Source: Romanomermis culicivorax
Taxonomy: Eukaryota > Nematoda > Enoplea > Mermithida > Mermithidae
DNA length: 64,000 nt
Direction of reading: 5' to 3'
Assembly: GCA_963922205.1 (NCBI GenBank)
Contig: CAWUHX010000089.1
Coordinates: 62,001-126,000 of the forward strand
Under the pieces are notes generated by a model. That model was not told the DNA's origin. It ran no database searches and saw only the letters and a program-made list of their open reading frames with translations. Positions 25,901 to 62,651 of the stretch are shown here, piece after piece. Each line of letters starts with the position of its first letter. Within the stretch, counting starts at the first letter, position 1. A program made the position numbers and the translations under genes.

Positions 25901-28900
25901 ATTGACTAATTGGGTCAAAGTGTCATTCTTGATAATCTGAAAACAAAATTTTGTATTTTGGCTGACGATCATTACGAAAATCTCGCCTTATCTATGAAGT
26001 AAAGGGCTGTGGCTGTTGAAATCCATTCTCTGGAGTGGAGTCCTGCGTCGATCCATATAGACGGCTTTTTCCGACCGCGTTGACCAATCTGAAATGTTGA
26101 TGATTGAAAGTAGGAAAATAACATTGACTTAATTTTTAAAAATTTTTCGAGCGAAAAGTTTTACAGCAAGAACTCTACGTAAACGATTTTGACGACAGTA
26201 CTGATTTGTGTCACTTTTCTATTTGGAAGCATTTTATAAAACGAAACTTCATGTTTACTCTGCAAGTATGGGAAAAACGTGTAATGCTTATCATAGGCCA
26301 TTCGTTTTTCATTTGTCTGTATCATTTACTACTGTAAATGAGGATCACATTTCCTAGTTCGAAAAAAATATAAAATGACTTCTTGTGGTGCGAAGGGCCA
26401 AACATTTGACACTATTTTTGATAAAAATTGATCACTTCCAGTTCAAAAACGATTTTTTTCTAGATTAAGTCCTAAGAAGGATGTGAGTTCGAATACAGAA
26501 GTCTTATTAATCTGCTTTTCTTGAAATTTTTGTAAATAATAACAGTGAAAAGCAAGTACTATCAGGACTGACTGTGCGTGTATATTCAACTAACCTTTAA
26601 AAACTTTTCTATAAGATTCGTTGGTTTTGGGTAGATGACGTCGACGACAGTGCTAATTTCTGTTATTTTTTGATTTACAAGCGTTTTATAAAAACAGTAC
26701 GGAATACGAGAAGGGAAATCGTTACCACTTGAAAAAAATCGTTACCATCGAACATGATTTTTTCATGATGCATCACGAAAATTTCAAATCGCAAAAATTT
26801 TAAGATCAAATCAAGATGTAAGAGTTTGTCGATGTTCAACTTTCTTTTCAAGTGCATCGCAATTTTTTAATTTTTTTGAAGGCATCTTGAAAAAAAATCA
26901 AGATACGCGACACATCAGAGGATGAAAGTTTCTGAAACTAGTCAATCAATGGCGTCGCTCCACCTCCTGTGTTTATACATTTGGGGACCCTTCAAAGGAG
27001 ATTCCTGAGGTCAAGGCTTGCTGGCGGAGGGCGTCCTTGGTTTTTACGGTGGGGATTGCTCTATCTCTTATCGTGCACAGGAATTCGATGGACATATTGT
27101 TTTTTTCGCAATAATTTTGGAAAGTAAATGAAATTTTCGTTTCTTTTTTAGATTCCAGAGTGGGTAGAGAATGAAAATAGAACAACCGATGAGATTCAAA
27201 ATGTTGATTATTTTCCGAAATTATTACATTTTAGGTAAAAAACAAACATTAATGACGTTTTTTTTTAAATCTCGTAAGAAACTTTTTAATGAATAATCAA
27301 TATGTCCATCGGATTCTCCATGCAAAATAAACTTCCCCTTTTGCTACACCCAGTACAACCCAAAGACACCCTCTACCAGTAGCCATGAACTCAAAAATCC
27401 ACTTTGATGGCTTCTAGTATATATAAATAAAAGAGGCGGAGCAACGCCGTTGATTGGTTAGTTTGAGAAATGCTTATCCTCTGATGTGCCATCCATTCAA
27501 ATTTTTTTCAAAATAGCACCTTGATTTTATTTCAAGATGGAATCTTGATTTCTTTCAAGATGGAACCTGGATTTTTTTCAAGATGACGTTATGATTTTTT
27601 CAAGATGACATTTTGATTTTTTCAACATGACATCTTGATTTTTTTAAGATTATCTCGGAAAAAATGTTATGCACTTGAAAAAAATACGATGCACTTGAAA
27701 AGAAGGTTGAACAAAAAAAGCTCTTACATCTTGATTTGTTGCTATGCATCTTGAAATTTTTTACGAAATCCCATGAAAAAATCTTGAGCATCACGTGCGA
27801 AGATAACAATTTTATTCAAATGATATCAAATTTTTTCAAGTAATAACAAATTTTTTAGTGGTAACGATTTTTTTTCAAGTGATGGCATATCTGGTATCCA
27901 GTAATACTAGGTGGAGCCGCAGATCTGTAGTGTGTAATATCCTTGGCCAAGGAATGTTCATTTCACACCACCAATTGAATGTTTACGGATGGCTTCTGCA
28001 TGTGTCGACTGACAGTCAAAAGCAAGCGCAGCTGGTTCAAAAACACAGCCAATAATGACAAAGTTATTCGACACCGCATCAGAGGGTTTAAAGTAGTGAA
28101 ATACTGTAGAATCTCAAGCGATAATTATCTTTACATGAAAATATGGAACAATTTAAAAGCTATACGATTTTATCCTAAATTACATCATTTCTGCGATCTG
28201 GCGACAAATTCCTATGTTTCTCGGATCGTTTTGCTTCTAAAAAATTGAACCGGAAGGCAAATACTATTTTATATTTTTGTAGTGCTTTGTTATGTCGCAC
28301 ATGACATAGAGCAAGAAATTTGTAAATCAACTCAACTAAATTCAAAATAAAAATGTTACTGTAATCGAATTCCAAAATAAGAGGAGTTGTTTTACAACAA
28401 AATTTACAAGAAATACACTACCAGGCGAAACTAACCATCTATGCCGGTCGCGTCCAGGACGCGTCCGGAACGCGTCCGGGACGCACTCAGGACACGATCA
28501 GCACACTATACCGACAATAAAATTGACAGACCATATGCCTGTGTCACACAAAGCCAAAAAATTTTGCTGATGCTTCCTTCTTACCTCCCTATAGAAAGCA
28601 CACATTATTTACCAGATATAAACGAAAGGTCAATTGTTGTCATACTGTAGGTCAAAACAAAGTGCATATCCACTACACATTATGAAAAAACCATGATTGA
28701 CAGTTATTGTATGGATGTCAATTATTAAGAAATTCTTTGTGCTGCCGAAAAAGACGCGTTCCGGACGCGATCTGGACGCGTCCAGGATGCGAATTTTTGA
28801 GGGTTAGTTTCGCCTGGTAGTGTAATAAGAAACCGACTATACGTAAACAGATGCACGATAATACATACCTTACAAACTGTTAGTGTCCTATTTTGATAAG

Positions 28901-30494: not shown

Positions 30495-33271
30495 CTAAAA
30501 TTACTGGAATCGCAGTTTAGCAAGTATTAATTTTTGAGAAAGTTTGAAGGCTCACTTTTCTGAACCAGTCGATTTGGTATGCACTGAAAGATCAAGAAAA
30601 AACAGCCACAAAAAGCTAAAAATGAAATGACGTCGAGCGACGAGGAAAAACATAATGATGTGAACTTCGAATAAAGTTTTCGAAAATTATCACATATAGT
30701 AGAAAAAAGGCTAAGCTAATGCTCGCCATAACGCTATGTGCGAGAACATGAAAAGACAGGTGATCAAATAGTCGATGATTTATGTGAATGACGGGACGAT
30801 AGCACAATTGATGGAGCAAAGAGAAAAAATTAACTAAAATTAAAAAACACTTTCGGCTTAAAAGCTATTCGAAATTTTATTTTATAGAGCCAGATGAAGA
30901 CAGAGGAGAAAATCTCACGTTGGCGTCATTTCTACGTAATTTTAAGTTGGTGCCGAAAAAATGACGAAGTTCGTGCGCTAAGAATGGAATGAAAGTCTTG
31001 AATACTGAATGGTATTCACAAAAAATTGAAAACTGCTATAAATTTCATCAAATTTTAAATGATTTTGCCAACTATGGTCACTACAAAAATGTTGGGGAAA
31101 TATTTTTAATTTGCTTGTTGACGTTAGTCTGTCTTTCTTGAAATTCCTGTAAATATTAACAAGATGGAAACTGTACTATTTCATGTTTTTGCCATTTTCT
31201 GCTATGTCACATAAGATTAAAGATTGTTAGCCTACTCAACTAAGTTTTACTATTTTTAAAATAGAAAATTTTCAAGTATGTAACGACCAGATTTTGTGAA
31301 GCATTTTACTTTAACCAATTGGACGTTATGGCGGAAAGGGCTATAATGGAGCGGGGGAACGGGAATATGGGCGATACACGGATAATAATAATCGACGGCT
31401 GCTTTGAGACGTCGACAACGATAAACGGGAAACGGGGCGAGTACAACAACGGCTTAACTGCTTCCGAATAAAAAGATGCTTGCTCGCAATACAAAAACGC
31501 TTGCAAATGAAATGGGCGCGGGTCGAAAAACAGAGAATTACAACAATAATAATAAAATCACGCTTTGCTTCTCCTTAAATAGGACGTTTTTGGCCACTCC
31601 CTGGGCGTCGCGGGAAGTCGTGCTTCTGTCCATCTTCTTCTGCCAATCGTCGCTTCCTGCTTTGCTTTTCATGCTTACTTAGTCACGCCTTTTAACGCTT
31701 TTCTAGTACGATATGCTTTTCGTGTATTGCTTGCTTCCTACGGTGGGCTTAGCCACACCTTTGTGCTTCTGTGCATGCTTCCTGTATCTGTTTCTCTGAA
31801 TACACATGTTTTGTGGGGCCGTCGCTACCGTTGCACTTGGGACTACTGTCTGGTGGGGCTTTTACTTATTTTACTGTGTGCAGGTGTTGTTTACGATTTT
31901 TACGGGGGATTACGGTAGCCGTGGAATGTGTGGTTTAGTGTAGGTTCTAGGGGACCAGTTGCCGTTTGTGCAAATTAATTGGGGCATCTTAATTGGGCTA
32001 CCGGGGTGTGAATGGATCAAAATAAAGTACTTCACATAATTTTATAGGAATGTTTGGGTGTGAATCCCAGACACCCTTGAGACGATAAAATAGGAAAATC
32101 AAATAATATTTAATAATTACTATCACATACAGTATGCTATATATTTACAGTACTGCGTTAGCAGGTACGTTACAAGTAAAAGCTTTGTGGGAGGGGGGGC
32201 TTATTTTCTTTCATATTTCAATTTATGAGGATTTTTTTTAAAGCAGGCTTTAGTTGCATCCCCTACTTCTGTGAAAACACCATACATGCACATGGGGGGC
32301 AGGGGTTTGGGGGGTTTTGACCCCCAGCAGATTTTTATTGACTCCTAGCAGATTCTTGCCAACCCCCAGCAGATTTAACTCCCCTAGAAATGATTGAGAA
32401 GTTGACGAAGGAAAATGATCAAGAGAGGAGAGAAAGTCGTCATGAAAATGGAAATGATGCCGTAGTTTAACAATTTTTCTAAAAAAACAATTTTTCAAAA
32501 AACAATTTTTCAAAAAAATAAAAAAATATTTAACAATTTTTCAAAAAAATTTAAATTAAACAAAGCATACTTGATTCCAAGAGAGTAACATTAAAACTGT
32601 AAAAAGTGCTTTCTGAGCAAATTATTTAATATATCTGACTAATATAGTTGTAAAAATATGCTGCTTGGATGTTAGAAAACCTTTCTTTTCATTATCAAGA
32701 ATGAAAAAAATTTTGTATTCCATCCCCCGTCCTGGCTGACCCCCAGCAGAATTTCTATGCTGTGCATGTATGGAAAACACCTTAGGAAATATCGCTGTAT
32801 TTGCTGTTAGAATTATATAGCCGTTTTGTCATAGCTTTTACGTATTTTTGCTGAATTCTAAAAACGTTTACACGAAACCTTTTCCAATTTTTTACTCAAC
32901 AAATTGTTAAGGGCTAAATGAGTACGATCACAAATTCGCTGTCCTAAAAATAGTTGTATAACAGCCAAAAAAATTTCTGATCCAATTTTTTGCGATCGAT
33001 TCCCTATTTTTGACTTTTCTGGATATTAACTGATAGCATGAGCATTCTAAATATTTTAGTTTTATTACCGTTTAGAATTAGAACAAATTAGAAAACAATA
33101 TATAAAACCACAACCGAAAAAATGAGCATTTGAAAAGTTACAATAAGGCTTCTGGTAAAAATATTCGAAAAATTTCGTGCCCACGTTGCTCGAAATTCGC
33201 ATAAAATGAAGGAATACAAATATCATCGAAAAATAAAAAATAGGAAAATGTCGGGATGGGAAAAAAGTTAA
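30495..33271. other. Region between second carboxypeptidase and melted; 5' exons of the former not found
   Basis: The missing signal-peptide and propeptide exons of the minus-strand carboxypeptidase would lie here. A hydrophobic minus frame (MASISLAFFLLYVIIF near 30731) is too close to the next exon to leave room for a propeptide. A GC-richer stretch at about 31560-31960 and R2 copy 2 at about 32290-32480 are present. No other gene recognised. Confidence 0.35.
32290..32480 (-). repeat. R2 (CTGCTGGGGGTCA) repeat, copy 2
   Basis: Reverse complement of the 14455-14645 repeat: gacccccagcagattttt, a diverged second unit, caacccccagcagattt, then tgattgagaag..gacgaaggaaaatga and agaaagtcgtcatgaaaatgg. 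A separate motif (ggctgacccccagcagaattt) follows at about 32743. Confidence 0.65.
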
Positions 33272-39200: not shown

Positions 39201-42200
39201 AACAGATGCCATCGTTGATGACAAATTGGATGAATGAAATGTTGTTACTTATTGAATGTTGAAAATATCAGTAGAACTTTGTGAATAATTCATAATAATA
39301 ATTTTAAATTTATTACAGTGTAGCAACTTCAGGTTGCATTTAGTACATGTTACAGCCGATGCATCGGCAATCGGCCATCGGCCGATGCCATCGGTGACCC
39401 TGGCCGATGCATCGGCATCGGCCGATGGCAAATTTTCGGTCCATCACTAATTGGCAATATTCAGTCTTACAACGGATAATACGATAAAGTTTATTCACCT
39501 GTAAATGCAGGAACATCAAGTGCAACCAGGTAACTGGCTGCTTTGTCCGAAATGTGAACGGAGTAACTTTAAAGAGACAATATTCGCCCATGGCTTGACA
39601 ATAGAACTGAATCTTCAAGTAATTTCGGTGTCCCACATCTAAAGAACAATGAAGAGAAACAACTATGGACCCTGTTTCCTCAAATCTCACGTTACATAGA
39701 ATTCGAGAGGCTTTCCACTACTTTAAAGATAGCACTTCAAGAAGAGAAATCCTCCGAAAATTTCGAATGTCAAAAATTATAGAAAAAATACCGTCTCTAA
39801 ATTTGGGCGGGAAAAGCAACGTTCAACAGGAATAAATGATTGGTTCGACACTATATTATTCCATGAAAACTTTACCTTCGACAACACACTGACGAGGCGC
39901 TGGACATTTTTTGCTCCACTCATCAACATAAACTTTAATTTTGGGTAAATGTTTATCACAAAATTGTTGAATGGCGTCCGAACCTTTGAAAGTCCGCGAA
40001 CCCTGAAAAATTGAAAATATTCAACGAAAATAAAAAAACTGAGGTCGTGCTGAGAGTCGAACTCAGGTTGATGGATTCAAAGTCCATAGTGCTGCCACTA
40101 CACCACACAACCGACGGAACTCAAGCATATTTTTATCAGTATATACTGAAATTTTATACCAAGCTTTTACCGAGCAATACCAAGGTAATAGTTTCTGTCT
40201 GAAAGTCATGAGAACATGTATTCAAGGCGCGAAGCGCCTGAAAAATTGACATTTTTGACCATTTTTGTTCGGAAATGACCATACCTGTAAGACCTCCGAC
40301 CAGTTGGGGGGGGGGGGGGTAAATCCGAAATTTTGGGGGGGGGGGGGGGGGTAGGAAAAAGTCGAAATTTTTCCCAAAAAAGGCCAAAAAACATACACTT
40401 TTTGGCAAATTTTTTTTATTTTTTCCCAACTGGGGTGGGGGGTTTGGGGGGAGGGGTCCCCCCCAAGTACAGGTATGGAAATGACTATTTCTTCAAAAAA
40501 ATTCAGTTTTTTTCCGACCAATGTGATGGGGGTTACTATCACTAGCTCATTTCAGTTGTATGACTAGCCAATCTTGAGGGGGGTCACTATCTGCGAAAAT
40601 ACTCAATTTTTTCAAAGAATCAGAGTAACGCATTCTTCACAAAATGAATGTTCTGCTCAAGATTTATACTATCCCTCAGCTGAGATATCATCTATCCTGC
40701 ATACAGACCAAAAAAATTGAATAATCTCAAACTTTGAATTACAGTAAAAACCCGAATTTTAGTTCTAATGCAAAACGAGTGTGAAGCATCTAAGAGTCTC
40801 AGGAAGCTCACTGAATTATCAGGAACATTCACTTTATCGTTTTCTTTCGTCAACGTCATTTTTTCAGCATAATATTTATCAGCTGAGGCAGGCGATCCAC
40901 GGTATTGAATCGAATCTTCCGCATTCAATTTGGAAATAATGATGCTATTGTTGGCCGCTGATTTTTCGTCGTTATTATTTTCATCTGCAGCTGCAAAGCG
41001 AGATAGTCAATCAACGTCAATCAAGACAGCGAAAATACGCACATGGAAGTAGAAAAGAATGATAGAACAAGAAAATGAGATTGACAAAAAGAAAAAAAAC
41101 ATGGAGACACAAAAAGACGGAAAAACAATTTGACGAATAGTATGCAAGCAAATATGTCAAGAAAAGTTAAAAATTTCAGCTAACCCATTTTTATCATAGT
41201 CATAAGCACGTGTCCGCTGCCTGTTCGTCGGGCGCTGATCGATGCGTCGCGACTAAACGTCGTAACAACTCGGCTTTCTGTAGCATCGAAGGCGGTTGAC
41301 GCCGTAACCGGTACGGCGACGGCCGCCTCGCAAGACTTTCGAAGGCGATAAGTATCTAAAGGAGTCGGAATATTAATTTTCGCTTTGAAGAAAACCTCAA
41401 ACTAGATGAAAAAAACGCTCGGTGTAAATACGCACAACTGATCAACTTCCACAATAAGTTTAACAGCACAAAAATCATTCTCTCATGCCAAGATTTTATT
41501 TTTCAGTTCACAGAATAAGAATTTCCTTTCTCCTCAAAAATATTCACTATTACCCGATGACCCATCAGAAAATAAATCGGCCTTGATTGACGACCCAACG
41601 ACGGCGGAGCACATTTCCAATTGACACCTGAAACGAAATTAATTAAAAATAAAGAAAAAGATCGCCTTCGCAGGGGCTCGAACCCTGGACATTCAGGTTA
41701 AAAGCCTGACGCTCTACCGACTGAGCTACGAAGGCACGACGTTGATGCTTAAACCGCGATACAAGAAAAGTGCTAGCATATGGGCGGAGGGATCCAGATG
41801 AAATGATAATTTCGCGAAAAAATCGACTTTAAACTAGAAAACTTGAACTTCGAATGAAATCAAATACTCCGCACAACTTATGGTATTACTGCGCCTGGTT
41901 CACACTCATCTTATAACGTTATACACAATTTAACCAGGGTTGAGAAAAAACCCATTTTCAAAATTTCGAATTTGGGGTTTTTATGGGTTTTATCACGGTT
42001 TTTTAAATTTCACAATTGTAGATCTGAACCGAGTAAAAGAAAAGCAAATGCAACATCATCATAGTTTTATTCGTCATTTGAATATTATGAAGAGTAGTTT
42101 TTCGACCGACGCAGATGAAAATCGGACGCTTATGGGGTTTAGGAGGTACGGAATTTTTTCCAAAATTTTTCAAATTTGCATAAAGCCGACTAAAATGATG

Positions 42201-54216: not shown

Positions 54217-56573
54217 CTGAACAATGAAAGACTGAAAAATGTTGATTGGAAACGAAAATCAACAGTAATCAATAGTGATATTCGTCGGATATCCGGATGA
54301 TTTTTGGATACGGGAAAATATCCGGATAACCGGACATCCGAACCTCTGATGGAAAACTTTCAACACGAATAAAAATAGGAAAGTCAAGGCACTAAAAAGA
54401 TTCGTTGAAGAGGCGATAGTGATTTCATATCAAACTAATGTTTCGATAACATAAATGCGAAGTGATCAACAAAAAAATTGAGACCTAACGATAAACTTAT
54501 TACGCTTTTATTGACAAACTTGTAGTTTTTCTGCCTTTATGTTCAGTGTATAATCTCCTGTGCTTGACCTTTTTTGTGTATTTTTTAGGTATTTTATTCT
54601 GATTTCCCTCATCTGACTGCATTAACAGTACCATTTATTAGAAAAAATGAATTACCCACAGAATTAATACTAGTAAATTTTTTTAAATGCCTGTCTTTTA
54701 GGACTCTTCGGAATTTATCTGATCCCACTCGAACGTGAACGTAATAAATTTTCATTACATTCAGTTCAAAACGTAATTTCTTATTTATAATCCTTGGATT
54801 ATACTTCAAATTTGTCGATAAGAAACTGAGACGAACAAAAGGATCGGCGACTTCACGTTTACCCATCAGATTATACAAATTTCATCTGTAATGTACTCTG
54901 CATACTTTAGCAGATTTTTATGAACTTTCTGTAACTATATTCTGTTCCCTTCTTAGTTAATTTTTTTCATCGATCTAAACGTGGAATTTACTTTGAAATT
55001 TATAAATTAAGGCCCTGTCATACTTCACTGCGCGGTGCAATATACAATCGGCTGGTCGTACCAAACACAGGCATAATTTTTTAATATTTACACTTTTAGC
55101 ATACATGCACATAGGGAGGTAGCAGTGGCGGATCCAGAAATTTTTTTTGGGAGGGGGAGCGGTGCTCAAAATTAAGTATTTTTCCAAAAAAAATTCGAAA
55201 AATTTTCAGGTTTGCCTATAGGTATACAGAAAAAAATCGTATTTCAAAAGTCTGGGGGGTATTCCAAATATTTCAAAAGTCTCCGCCTAACCCCAGTATT
55301 TCAAAAATCTCTGTCGTGCGTGAAAAAATAGAAGTGACGACGGAACGCAAATGAAAATTAAGCTGTGTAGCTTGACGAGTTATCGCGTGTTTTTGAAGAG
55401 ACGTACGGAACGTAGTAGAGTGTGCGGAATGCTAGAAATGGAACACTGGGAGTGTTTGATGAAATCAACGCAACGATAATCGTACGCAGGAGATTGACGG
55501 GCTTGTAGAGAGCGCTGTGTCAATTATCCAGGGATCTTCACTCAGGTCGTCAAAGGTTTTCGGATGCCGAAACTCGGGCCGTGCTATCTTAACCGCTTCG
55601 GAGTTTCACCCGCTTACTCAAACTATTTTCCAAATAGTTTGACTCAACCTAGAACACACGCTCGGTTTTCGATTTACTAGAAATGCTCAGAGCCTCTCAC
55701 AAAACCGACTGCTCACTAAGACAAACAAAACAACAACTGACTTTATCACAAACTTGCTGCGAGTGTAATCTTTGGTGTTGTGAACCTTCGGACAACTTTG
55801 AACAACTTTGAGCTCCGAAACGATGCATTCTTGCGAATCACTTTGAAAAGCTGACGAGCTTACTGTAGTTGTTTGGCGCACCACAACATCTCCCCCTAAA
55901 TCCGCACTTGGGAGGTAGGGGGTAAACCCCAACACCTGAGACCCTGGCCACCCCCCTGGCACAAAAAATAGTCAAACACGCCCCTGAACCTTTTTCAACA
56001 CAGCTTTTTTGATGATTGTTGTGCATATTTTATATGAAAAACAAGCTTTCAGAATTTTTTTTTGCTCACCCGCCTCCATACCCCCTGGATAAAAGGTCTA
56101 AGGACCCTCCCCACTGGAAAATTCTTGCCGTGCATGTCTGACTTGTAACTTTTTCGAGCATTTTCCATAAACGTGGATGAAATAGTCGGCCGTCAAGAAC
56201 AAAACGGTGTCTTCTGATGCATTTTAGAAAAGCAGAATCTTTAAATTTTACAGTACTGCGCGCAGGGTTTAGACATAATTATCATTATTAATTTGAATTT
56301 ACGGCCCTCAGGAAGTCAAGTAACGATTTCAATCACTAACATAATCACAACCAATAATGTTCACTAACCAGTGATATTCACCGTTAAGTTTTTGATTTAA
56401 ATTTCGTGATGATTTTATTCTTATTGTTTAGAAGCTTAATTTTCATAGAATTTAAAAACGGTGAACACAAGTCGATTCTATCACATCCATATGATCAGAT
56501 ATTCGAGGACCATCATTGATAATCAAAAGTATTACGATCACAAAAAACACCAACGATATAAGGAAAAAATACA
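54217..56573. other. Intergenic 5' of melted, no gene recognised
   Basis: It contains a short block with ccggatatccggat palindromes (about 54283-54350) resembling a hAT-like end. A block at about 55120-55160 (agtggcggatccagaaatttt with a G-run) and one at about 55905-55975 (ggtagggggtaaacccc, gagaccctggccacc) resemble transposon ends; the latter matches 52675-52735. No coding exon supported. Confidence 0.35.
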
Positions 56574-56646
56574 CGCCTTCGCAGGGGCTCGAACCCTGGA
56601 CATTCAGGTTAAAAGCCTGACGCTCTACCGACTGAGCTACGAAGGC
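56574..56646 (-). tRNA. tRNA-Lys (anticodon UUU), copy 2
   Basis: Identical over all 73 bases to the tRNA-Lys at 41663-41735: same acceptor GCCTTCG/CGAAGGC, anticodon TTT and discriminator G. It lies in intergenic DNA upstream of melted. Flanks differ beyond a few bases (shared cacga 5' of the gene), which suggests an older duplication kept identical by selection or gene conversion. A minus-strand T-run (complement of ggaaaaaat) acts as terminator. Confidence 0.96.
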
Positions 56647-57089
56647 ACGAAGACGAGTAGGTTTTCTGTTATCACAAACTTTAAAGAATCGTGATCAAAC
56701 ACGAACACAAATTCTAATTCTGATTCTAATGCTTATGTTAATACTAAATTCTAATTTTAACACAATTTGAGCATTTTCAGAATCAACAAAGAATCGTCAA
56801 AACGTCACTTATCTGAGTTAGCCAAGACAAATGACGTATTGAGCATTATCTGGTGACTTTTAAAGTATTTTAGAAAAACCGATAAATATTCTCAAAAACT
56901 CGAGGAACAGTACGATTTTTTCGAGTTGGAGTTTTCAATTTTTCAAGTTTACAATTTTTGGAACTCTTACAAAAAGTCCAAAAAGGTTCCCGTACTCGTT
57001 GCATCATAAATAATTGAGAGTCAATTTAGTTGCAACAACAGCAGGACATTCATCTTTCTCGACTCTCGAATAATGTTTCATCAAATAAT

Positions 57090-58186: not shown

Positions 58187-59101
58187 TTGAAACAAAATAT
58201 GGATAGAAGATTATTGATCAACAAATAAAAAATGAGATACGAATTGTAGACCTGGTCACGCCTGAGCTAAATTATAGCAAATAATGTCTATTTTATAATG
58301 TCGGAAAAATATGAGGTTCGAACCTAAGAAAATGCAGTTAAAATTTGGATTCCGTTCACTAATGAAAAGCATTATAAAAAAAGAACACACAAAACAAGCA
58401 TGGAAAACAGTCCAATCAAAAGTTAGGATGTCGTCACTCGAGTATCTTATCCCCTTAGACTAGTAAGTATGCAACTGATTTTGATGCAGGCTGCCAGAAA
58501 ATATAAAAAATTGACGTCGGCGATGAAGCGAAAAATTGCCGACAAATAAGCATAATTTGTATCATTTTGAAAAAAGGAGAGGAGCATAGGTGCACAAAGT
58601 CCAAGTTTTAGGCAGGGGATAAATTCCAAAGTCATGATATAGTAATTTTTTTTGGAAAATCAAAACTGTGATTTTATTTTTTCTTATTTTTCATGCTTTT
58701 ACTGGTTCTTTATGTTTGGCAGTCTTGTGGTCTATTAAACAAGCTTACTGGAAAGTTTTATCCAAATAAGTAACAGAAACATATGACGTCATAACCAAAC
58801 AAACATGGTAATAAATTTCCAGTTTTTTCTAAATAGTATGCTCTATTGCTCATTTATAGAGCATAATTGAAATAGTTTTCTATTTTTAACCAGAATACAA
58901 ACTGCTTTAACAACCTTTGACTACTTTCAATTACATTGGATGTATGTATTTGCTACCTGAGCATTGGTTTATTTTCGTTTTCCAATAAATTCTGATAAAA
59001 TTATTTGATCTCGAATAAAGTAAGAATTTAAAGTTATATATTTAATTAATCTTGACTTGTGATTATGGCACAACTTTTTGTATTCAGTTACGGTTTTTGT
59101 T
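58187..59101. other. Intergenic, nothing recognised
   Basis: AT-rich DNA without supported exons. It may include the promoter of the LTD-hAT pseudogene; no TATA or other element could be singled out from background AT content. Confidence 0.3.
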
Positions 59102-60522
59102 ATGGCTCATTTCTGGTTAATTTGGATTTTATCAGCAACAGCTTGTATTTTACTTTCCTGTGCTGTTGCGGTCATTAATGAAATTAATGCCGATGACCCA
59201 TCAAAGCCAGAAAAAAGGAATTTGTTGAGCTCGTCGCATTTGGTCACAAAAGAGCCGCTGACCAGGATAGCACACAACTCGAGGATTTTAGTCTGTGTGG
59301 TTACAAAATCATAGTGATTTCTGCCTACCAACAAGGTGCAAAAGGACCAACAATTGAACTTGTTGCTGACTTTTGGAACTCAAGAATTAAAAATTCATAT
59401 TTCGTTTTTGGTGGTACGGGAATTGACAATGCAACAACCCTTTGGTGACATACAGGCAAAAATTTACCCGGTAAACACCAATATTGTTTGGATTTATGGG
59501 AAATGCTAATGTTTATCCACACACCATAGCAGTGGTTTATGGTACAGATGGTCCCCCAGCACTGAAACTTTCGGAACAGGCCCATATTTGAAAATTACCC
59601 CAGAGTTGAAATCATTAATCAAACAATCACTTGTTGACATTGTGGTTTATGGAAGAAGAGCTTCAGCTGAGCAATGTGGTATATTTGAAGACTTGTACGA
59701 TGATTTTGCAGGTATTTAAAAATCAATTAATTGGCAATATCATTAATCTTTTGTTTTTCTGATAAAAATGCTCAAACATATGCATTTGCTTATTTTATTA
59801 AGCAAATGCTTGAGCATTTTATAATTTCATTGTATTTTATCAGCAACAACTTGTATTCAAGTGCTTATGTAATTTTCTTGTATGCAGGAAGAAACTACCT
59901 TCTTCGACAATACGATGTGCCAACAGATACTGCATGTGATTTTTCATTAAACCGTTGCACAGCTGAAACCAGTCCAATGCTACCGGAAAAAATTAAACTT
60001 GGCAAAACAACACCTGGTGCTTTGAATGATTGCACTGGATTACCCTTTGTGATTGAGACAAATATTGTCAAGCTGACAAACCCATTAACACATCATTACA
60101 GGACTTCAGAAGATGAACAAATGGAGATTCTTGCTGTTGGAGAAGAACCTCATTGCAGCAGCAGATTATCTCAGGATGAATACTGGAGCATTTTTAACAA
60201 TCTTGTCCACACTGCAATCCAAACTGATATTGACCTGAGCAAAATGAACTCAATATGCAATGCAAATGCAATGGGAAGTGATGACCTTACAGGAGCTGGA
60301 AATAATGCCCTAACCATAATGTCTGCTGATAGAGCCATTGGTACAATGACAGGATCACAGCCCCAAAGAAAGTGGGAGACAACTTCACTCTTTGACAACA
60401 GATGGTTGAAACAAATTGAAGCACTCCAAAAGTCACTTTTGCCCATAAGGACGATCCAAAAAAACAAAGTCTGGTTCGAATATTTGCCTAATGCACAGAA
60501 TCCAGCCCAATCTCATTATCGA
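59102..60522 (+). pseudogene. Secreted lamin-tail-domain (LTD) protein moiety of an LTD-hAT composite gene, decayed
   Basis: It begins with a signal peptide (MAHFWLIWILSATACILLSC), then VINEINADDPSKPEK and EFVELVAFG, the classic start of an LTD fold, followed by GNANVYPHTIAVVYG and LVDIVVYGRRAS. A second LTD-associated block is FSLNRC...TPGALNDC. An intron at 59712-59887 (GCAG|GTATTT...TATGCAG|GA) is in phase. Defects: a one-base frameshift in the A-run near 59212-59218, an in-frame TGA at 59446-59448, a further frameshift near 59480-59500, and a TGA at 59589-59591. The long frame 59888-60522 is intact and runs into ...NPAQSHYR, where an 853-bp hAT element is inserted. Deleting the insert continues the frame directly into the zinc finger at 61384. 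The LTD assignment rests on remembered motifs; function is unknown. Confidence 0.65.
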
Positions 60523-61375
60523 TAGTGCTTCACACCGGGTACCTGGGTATTTCGGGTACCCGGGTATACCCGGGTAAATTTTCTGAATGAAACGGGGGTG
60601 CTACCCGGGTACCCGGGTCTCAACAAGATATTGTATAAACGGAATATTTATATACTATTACTCGTATTTATGTGCAGTTACAGTGAATGAACCTATTTTC
60701 CTTAATTAATTCAGTGCATGTACCTACTCAACGTGTTAACAACGCCGCTTATGGCTCTCAAAAAGTCACTGTGGCATATTTTTAGCAACTAATGTGTTTT
60801 AACAATGGAGCACGAAACGGAAATATAAAAAAGTCTTCGAGAAATTATGCCTGTGTCAAATATTGGACTCGATGCAGTATAAGAAAACAATAAAAGTTGG
60901 AGAGATGCATTATGTATAAGATTGAAGAGGCATAAAAACTGATGATGATGAACCGGTGTAGAGATGGTTAAACCCAGACCTATTGGGATATATTGATGGT
61001 TAAACCCAGACCTAGTGGGATATCTGGCTTCATCAAATAGTTGTGATGCGTGACCAGGTCACCACAATTTGCTTAAACGTATAAAAAATTTTGAAATATT
61101 GATTTTCTCCAGACGAAAAGAAAATTTTTTTTTTGAAAAAAACTTTTGTTTGAAGAAAATGTGTTATTGGTTTCTCCTAATTTTTGTTTCTTAGCACTTT
61201 GCAAGGGTCATGCCTCAAAATTTATGAGTTTTCCGAAAATTTTCATGGAGTGTGTTCATTCACTGACTTTTTTAATACTTGCATATAGTACCCGGGTACC
61301 CGAAATACCCGCGTAACCCGGGTACCCTAAAGACCGGGTACCCAGGTCCTAAAATTTTGAAAGTGTAAAGCACTA
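60523..61375. mobile_element. Non-autonomous hAT element (853 bp) inserted in the LTD-hAT gene
   Basis: Starts TAGTGCTTCACAC and ends GTGTAAAGCACTA (inverted). The exact 8-bp duplication ATTATCGA lies at 60515-60522 and 61376-61383. Both ends carry arrays of GGGTACCCGGGTA palindromic motifs (60535-60625, 61288-61350). Inside is a 32-bp tandem duplication (gatggttaaacccagacct, at 60963 and 60995). No transposase frame. The first three bases (TAG) form the stop that ends the interrupted frame. Confidence 0.92.
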
Positions 61376-62651
61376 ATTATCGATGCAGGTTTTGCAGTAA
61401 ATATTTCAGTAAATTTAGCCTGGATGAGCAGAACAAACCTGCCTTAGCCGAGCAAGATGGTGTTTTACACCAAGATTATCAATCGAATTGGCAAGCAATA
61501 TCTGACCATCCGAAACATAACATCTGCAGGTCATTTCAAAGCTTGAAACTTTGGCCAAAGAAAGTCGCCACAGCAGTTTGCTACAACACAAGCTGAAAAT
61601 GACCAAGAAGACAATAAGTATTATGCAATGACCATGCGAATGATGAGAACAGTTTATGTAGAAATGAAGAACTTGCCATTCTTGTCACATCCCAAGATTG
61701 TTGAACTGCAAACCATGAATGGTGTGTACATGGGTTATCACCACTACGACAGAATGTCAGCAAGTCGCATTGCATCGGTCATCAGTGAAGAAATGCACAA
61801 AATGCTGATTCGACATCTAACATCTAAGCAATATCCACTGTCAATCATCATTGACAGTTCAAAAGGATTCCAGCGAAAATCACTACTTAATCGTATATTT
61901 TCAAGCTTTAGAAAATGGTGCACCAGTAGTCTACTCTTACAAATTGGTGCAGCTTGATGCGGATGAGACTGCTGCAGCATTGCTGAACAAATTAGTTGAA
62001 ACATGGAACAAAGAACCAGACGGATTTACCCAGCACCTGAAGAAAAATTTACGAGGCTATGCATCTGATGGTGCTGCAGTGATGATGGGGAAAAAAGGTG
62101 GACTGGTGAAATTATTGAACAACTGGACAGATTATGAACTTTACAGCATACACTGTATGGCTCATCGGCTTCATCTGGCAATACAAAATGCCTTCAAGTC
62201 TGTGGATTATTATAAAGATTTTGAAGATCATGTCAATGAAGTTCACAATGTCTACAACCGACACGGACACAAAAGAAAAGCCCATCTGAGAGCATTGGCT
62301 GAAGTCTTGAACACACGAATGTATGAAGTATCCTACATCTATGAAGCTCGTTGGATCAGTTCTGAATTCTGTTCACTGAAAACATTGAATGACACATGGT
62401 AATTGCTAATCACTGACCTTGTAGCCATCTTAACTGACACGAGTTTCAGTGGAGAAACACGAAGTTTCAGTTCAGAAACACGAAGCCAAGAAAAATATTT
62501 TAATATTCTAAAATGCTGGACAATAAATCTTTTCATCAGATATTCGAGAACAGAGGTTCTAAAATCACAGTCTAGAATGATGTCTTCAATTTCAATTTTC
62601 GATAAACACAAGAGTTCATCTTGCAAATGTTTGAAAAATTCCAAGCATTGA
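61376..62651 (+). pseudogene. hAT-type (KIAA1586-like) transposase moiety, decayed and 3'-truncated
   Basis: It begins with a zinc finger (CRFCSKYFSKF...DHPKH, BED/TTF-like C2H2). After a frameshift near 61562 it continues QQFATTQAENDQEDNKYYAM, then MTMRMMRTVYVEMKNLPF and a first catalytic-type Asp in SIIIDSS. A second frameshift lies near 61876. Next come YFQALENGAPVVYSYKL, the second acidic motif SDGAAVMMGKKGG and the hAT hallmark IHCMAHRLHLAIQNAF. A TAA at 62401 follows TLNDTW, after which the family pattern continues (LLITDLVAILTDTSFSGETR) and fades by about 62651. The C-terminal dimerisation region with the catalytic Glu is not recognisable. It forms one open frame with the LTD part once the hAT insert and its duplication are discounted. 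Confidence 0.8.

Follow-up and report, generated by a model that had tools for sequence, protein, structure and literature searches.

A lamin-tail-like, secretion-like module at the head of a hAT transposon family in Romanomermis culicivorax

The locus

The window, the whole 64,000-nucleotide stretch of DNA that was analysed (G000:C89:62001-126000), comes from contig CAWUHX010000089.1 of the mermithid nematode Romanomermis culicivorax, within a 359.1-Mb assembly of 595 contigs. Close to its right-hand end lies a dead, decayed, 3'-truncated copy of a family of hAT-type cut-and-paste transposons that is abundant in the assembly. Its parts, in window positions and with LTD standing for lamin-tail-type domain, are as follows:

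58585..~62490, + strand: LTD-hAT transposon copy, subfamily A; 5' end CATAGGTGCAC, 3' end missing, end coordinate approximate
59102..59711, + strand: exon 1, signal-like start and LTD-like domain, in at least three frames (reading frames and alignments)
59102..59167, + strand: hydrophobic, signal-peptide-like start MAHFWLIWILSATACILLSCAV (Kyte-Doolittle scan)
59712..59887, + strand: putative spliceosomal-type intron, GT...AG, phase 1 (read from the sequence)
59888..60070, + strand: start of exon 2, a conserved Cys/TPG block (NRC...TPGALNDC) after the LTD (translation and alignment)
60071..60522, + strand: middle segment of unknown function, conserved across subfamilies (genome matches and pN/pS)
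60523..61375, no strand assigned: later insertion, a short hAT-like non-autonomous element of 853 bp (8-bp duplication and end repeats)
61384..61591, + strand: zinc-finger-like stretch (CRFC...H) before the transposase, frame broken (motif by eye)
61592..62402, + strand: N-terminal and central part of a hAT transposase, spread over two frames; this copy lacks the C-terminal dimerisation region, which relatives have

A sequence-only reading of this DNA had proposed a composite gene running from 59102 to 62651. Its components are indeed there in translations and alignments: a signal-like beginning at 59102, motifs resembling those of an LTD, the TPGALNDC block, a middle segment of unassigned function and, following the insertion, hAT-type sequence. 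What must be given up is the single continuous reading frame that was to join them, as this copy is interrupted by frame breaks, an intron and the 853-bp insertion, and has lost its 3' end. Exon 1 gives three separate matches (C89:121194-121436, 121379-121606 and 121555-121716), the VINEIN motif lying together with the hydrophobic stretch in the ORF that opens at 59102; exon 2 is open up to 60522, and the hAT part shifts frame again within 61821-61957. Pfam and PDB sequence searches with single pieces of the window returned nothing useful, the zinc-finger-like stretch having no Pfam match. The intron holds, at 59830-59857, a 28-bp near-copy (93%) of part of the signal-like coding sequence (59122-59149). 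Elsewhere in the window two tRNA-Lys genes (41662-41736 and 56573-56647) lie 15 kb apart on the same strand, with equal Rfam scores.

The limits of the copy come from seven dispersed sisters (L002-L008), mostly 89-93% identical to it in DNA, with one 139-bp piece of L008 at 84%. The 5' boundary at 58585 is common to L003, L004, L005 and L007, and in the same four BLAST similarity stops at 62464; it stops earlier in L002 (62410), L006 (62204) and L008 (61862), while inspection by eye possibly extends it to ~62490. Since similarity to the sisters ends there, 62491-62651 is flank, outside the gene, and the boundaries first proposed have to be redrawn at both ends. That the insertion is secondary, as had been suspected, is clear: 8-bp duplications ATTATCGA flank it at 60515-60522 and 61376-61383, its ends TAGTGCTTCACA / TGTAAAGCACTA form 12-bp end repeats complementary at 11 of 12 bases, and L002, L003, L004, L006, L007 and L008 align across the empty site. 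The seventh sister, L005, is uninformative, its alignment stopping at 60489 and resuming at 62375. The inserted element is rich in CCCGGGTACCCGGG and sits ahead of the hAT part.

The family in the genome

The middle piece (211 aa) has at least 124 matches in the genome, window included (150 of 192 candidates scored; best other match E 8e-118), the LTD query at least 147 (150 of 185 candidates scored) and the hAT query at least 106 (98 of 282 candidates scored). The loci retrieved fall into groups: A (the window copy and L002-L008), B (L009-L021, L023, L026), C (L050, L059-L061, L064, L065), C2 (L062, L063), D (L022), E (L024), F (L051, L066-L069) and G (L052, L053), with L025 and L027-L030 outside named groups. 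Contigs C104, C145, C163, C306 and C363 carry repeated short forms that combine the start of exon 1 with parts of the middle segment and of the hAT region, and C171 has short forms made up of the beginning of exon 1 and some of the middle segment, without the hAT part; all look like internally deleted derivatives of the family.

The hAT label is borne out by PF05699, the hAT C-terminal dimerisation region, which exceeds its cut-off of 21.4 bits in L031 (22.4) and L051 (29.4) and falls below it in L052 (20.6) and L050 (14.0); for subfamily B the end of the transposase was read from one copy, in L031. The motifs GYASDGAAVM and IHCMAHRLHLA look like those of KIAA1586-like hAT proteins, the label given in the sequence-only reading and a candidate one here. 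The two halves mostly occur together. When the 106 hAT rows were set against the 147 LTD rows and 16 of the 82 rows of a further LTD search, an LTD was found upstream, on the same strand and within 7 kb, at 61 of 82 hAT places (chance ~0.1), and intact copies keep the same order. The sequence-only reading had held that its composite gene would fall if the halves were always separate elsewhere; they are not. The other 21 hAT places have no LTD match within 7 kb, many of them, to judge by length, probably being fragments. Conversely, 70 of 131 LTD places lack a hAT match, and among these are apparent short deletion derivatives and copies of a second element, TE2, described below.

Fused gene or adjoining genes?

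The junction between LTD and Cys/TPG block is occupied in subfamilies A and B by a putative phase-1 intron (the one listed above in the window, ~96 bp at the same position in L009), and an unspliced message would meet a stop just past the LTD. Other groups do without it. L050 of group C (384 aa), L066 of group F (334 aa), L053 of group G (701 aa) and L022 of group D (436 aa, with one stop upstream inside the LTD) have no intron at the junction and stay in frame from LTD to block. The strongest argument that the presumed spliced products of A and B are fused as well is this retention of a single frame by independent groups. The N-terminal module and the transposase would be parts of one polypeptide, made by splicing in the two subfamilies with the intron and by direct reading in groups C, D, F and G.

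An element bearing two adjoining but separate genes, one for a secreted LTD protein and one for a hAT transposase, is the alternative that fares best, although we think it unlikely; it amounts to a variant within the explanation preferred here. It would account for the in-frame stop in the retained intron of B, with an intron at the same place in A, for the signal-like start, and for a methionine that stands, by eye, ahead of the CSS(R/H)L motif (or of what corresponds to it) in groups A to E and G. This methionine is missing in group F, however, the intron phase preserves the frame in A and B, and in C, D, F and G the Cys/TPG block is reached from the LTD without a change of frame, over as many as 701 residues in L053. 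We consider it very probable that this is a hAT transposon that encodes N-terminal module, middle segment, zinc-finger-like stretch and transposase, and that the module is kept by selection.

Is the N-terminal domain a lamin tail?

Assignment of the N-terminal domain to the lamin-tail type is supported, not conclusive. With the standard profile, PF00932, nothing scores above the curated cut-off, two of 25 rows coming nearest with E 0.11, and a genome search in which two candidates were scored gives no match at E<=0.001; NCBIfam searched with the 25 rows of one alignment (A2) produced nothing useful, and PDB searched with another (A1) no match. The sequence-only reading had named failure in a lamin-tail profile search as a reason to drop its assignment, and the PF00932 result, taken alone, would be precisely that. 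Other comparisons agree with the assignment. A profile of 47 prokaryotic LTD-type domains, of which all nine scanned pass PF00932, matches 10 of the 25 rows with E<0.001, at 11.1-19.1 bits, when the best of 1000 shuffles reaches 5.3 bits with the same profile; the window's own fragment, at 1.0 bit, is outside the ten. Comparing profile with profile, hhalign scores the module against prokaryotic LTDs at 89% (P 2.3e-6), against 0.4% for the reversed control, with 30 column shuffles staying at or below 1.2%. In two predicted structures the lamin-B1 tail ranks first and second for both models, Foldseek alone giving no match at E<=0.001. Against this profile, alignment and model evidence, the proposal that the domain is another kind of beta-sandwich seems improbable.

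Age and constraint

The module is old in the family. It is found upstream in hAT relatives only 33-38% identical, on C117, C344, C306, C10, C365 and at three places on C5; a further relative, at C5:2968936 (35%), has no module within 7 kb and group F-like LTD matches ~8.4 kb upstream. It is also constrained about like the transposase. Between B and A, C and D in turn, pN/pS is 0.22, 0.35 and 0.36 for the LTD, 0.34, 0.38 and 0.43 for the middle segment, and 0.28, 0.34-0.42 and 0.33 for the hAT part, values that are rough because synonymous change is near saturation. In pairs that include F, G or TE2 the ratio is 0.49-0.82 in every part, the signal being hidden by saturation.

Gene-fragment capture by transposons is common, so that the LTD exon might be thought a neutral passenger, or merely a source of promoter and leader. 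This is very improbable: across all pairs from A to D the LTD (0.22-0.45) looks as constrained as the transposase (0.20-0.43), and it has been kept in hATs as distant as those just listed.

Mobility

Subfamily B shows what an intact element looks like. In L009 it spans 4331 bp, with CATACATGGCCAC at both ends as short terminal inverted repeats, and full-length matches to it are 98.9-99.7% identical; to judge from its sequences, group B is young, the youngest of the subfamilies. All 14 copies whose 5' end was examined begin at the same base and have differing flanks. The target-site duplications were looked for in 12 of the 15 group B copies, those whose 3' ends were fetched, and 11 of them have a perfect one of 8 bp, each a different 8-mer, L010 being the one without an identical pair. 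The search that the sequence-only reading had called for, that of intact copies with the same architecture and 8-bp duplications, finds such duplications at these eleven. Of 13 copies examined, 7 have no break in either exon within the sequence fetched for the locus. Near the 5' end (L009:277-623) lie ~115-bp tandem repeats. Outside subfamily B no 3' ends were found: a simple scan revealed no 3' end repeat in subfamily A, no firm ends could be assigned to group G, and the B end sequence does not occur in the window above chance (11 matches with at most 3 mismatches, 8.7 expected).

The signal-like start and LTD exon lie inside the ends of the subfamily B element and, together with the 8-bp duplications, this location means that the element carries the domain: the module is within the mobile unit and moves along with it. 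Asked whether a hAT had taken up host exons or a host gene encoding a secreted LTD protein had captured a transposase, as the sequence-only reading left it, we keep the placing of the LTD in the mobile unit and discard the second branch, which can hardly be credited: LTD and secretion do resemble host traits and the window copy has no 3' transposon end, but dispersed copies share ends, eleven of the twelve bear duplications, and many related copies exist in all stages of decay.

A second element with the module

LTD matches at 25-32% identity led to another element, TE2 (L047, L048, L049), the 5' ORF of which has a signal-like start, an LTD-like domain and a Cys/TPG block. One copy is listed here:

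~G000:C4:942297-950395: TE2 copy, containing L047 (G000:C4:943066-948065)

It spans ~8.1 kb between 1158-bp inverted repeats that are 95.8% identical, with ends TTTAAGAC; no target-site duplication was confirmed. The ORFs after the module have no Pfam match. A 467-aa TE2 protein has no PDB match, and BLASTP finds it dissimilar to the hAT part of L009; in the genome it has at least 101 matches (91 of 817 candidates scored); the large protein displays the motifs QVDWAMKW, WFGKRGIPWHIS and RSDNAACYHS. A match to the LTD or to the block lies within 7 kb upstream at 20 or more of 83 TE2 places (chance ~0.04), a floor, because the LTD queries derive from hAT elements and the 48 rows used were picked from two LTD searches; 28 of these 48 rows adjoin no scored TE2 match. 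An LTD tree (12 rows, arbitrary root, long branches flagged) separates the hAT-near, hAT-far and TE2 modules into three groups. Within the window, 28414-28824 and 31274-32174 are 81-87% identical to sequences in two truncated TE2 copies, L055 and L054; they are probably other repeats inserted in L055 and L054.

What the module may do

Each group scanned (A, B, C, C2, D, F, G and TE2) has a hydrophobic start by the Kyte-Doolittle measure, with differing letters. With 1000 shuffles of the protein concerned as the yardstick, this stretch stands out most in TE2 (3), C (11), B (21) and, from a short fragment, A (41); it is weakly marked in G (71), F (88), D (147) and C2 (174, from a row cut after the methionine). 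A signal peptide fits poorly with an enzyme that acts in the nucleus, as a normal one would send the transposase into the endoplasmic reticulum, where it would be unable to act. One way out is that the hydrophobic stretch serves as an anchor in the membrane of the endoplasmic reticulum and nuclear envelope, with the remainder of the protein on the cytosolic or nucleoplasmic side, that the LTD-like domain contacts chromatin or envelope partners, and that the transposase would then act from the nuclear periphery. This is our first choice, a tentative one. It is also possible, if rather unlikely, that two products are made, an LTD protein that is secreted or sits in a membrane and, begun at an internal methionine, a transposase that enters the nucleus, a scheme helped by the intron of A and B and by the methionine before the CSS(R/H)L equivalent (A to E and G, not F). 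That some other mechanism operates is about as probable as our first choice.

A cut-and-paste transposon is usually seen as a transposase flanked by two ends. Here a lamin-tail-type domain and a secretion-like signal appear to have been kept by selection through deep hAT divergence. It might even be, though we find it doubtful, that the LTD module, secretory or of the membrane, is a portable transposon accessory, maintained by selection and acquired at least twice by unrelated elements of this genome, that would route a transposase to the membrane of the endoplasmic reticulum and nuclear envelope or act there itself. To our knowledge, no compartment-targeting strategy has been recognized for cut-and-paste transposons. 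The literature, accessible in part, yielded no LTD-transposase fusion, which does not establish that none is in print. If the module has its role at the nuclear envelope or in the extracellular space, a trick of transposon targeting or spreading has been overlooked; if it yields a by-product only, the family is still a clear natural experiment, in many copies, on the capture of a domain by mobile DNA.

Relation to known systems

The 8-bp duplications, short end repeats and PF05699 region are those of the hAT superfamily, with which the present family contrasts in opening with a signal-like stretch, an LTD-like domain and a Cys/TPG block; its CATACATGGCCAC ends are not known to be the commonest among hAT elements. 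TE2 shares with LTD-hAT this arrangement at its 5' end and differs in the length and sequence of its terminal repeats and in a large downstream protein without BLASTP similarity to the hAT part of L009. With the PF00932 lamin tail, known from lamins and from secreted prokaryotic proteins, the module has in common the VINEIN...EFVEL...SL.GY motif, a predicted beta fold and a profile match, whereas it stays under the Pfam cut-off, is followed by a Cys/TPG block and is joined to a transposase.
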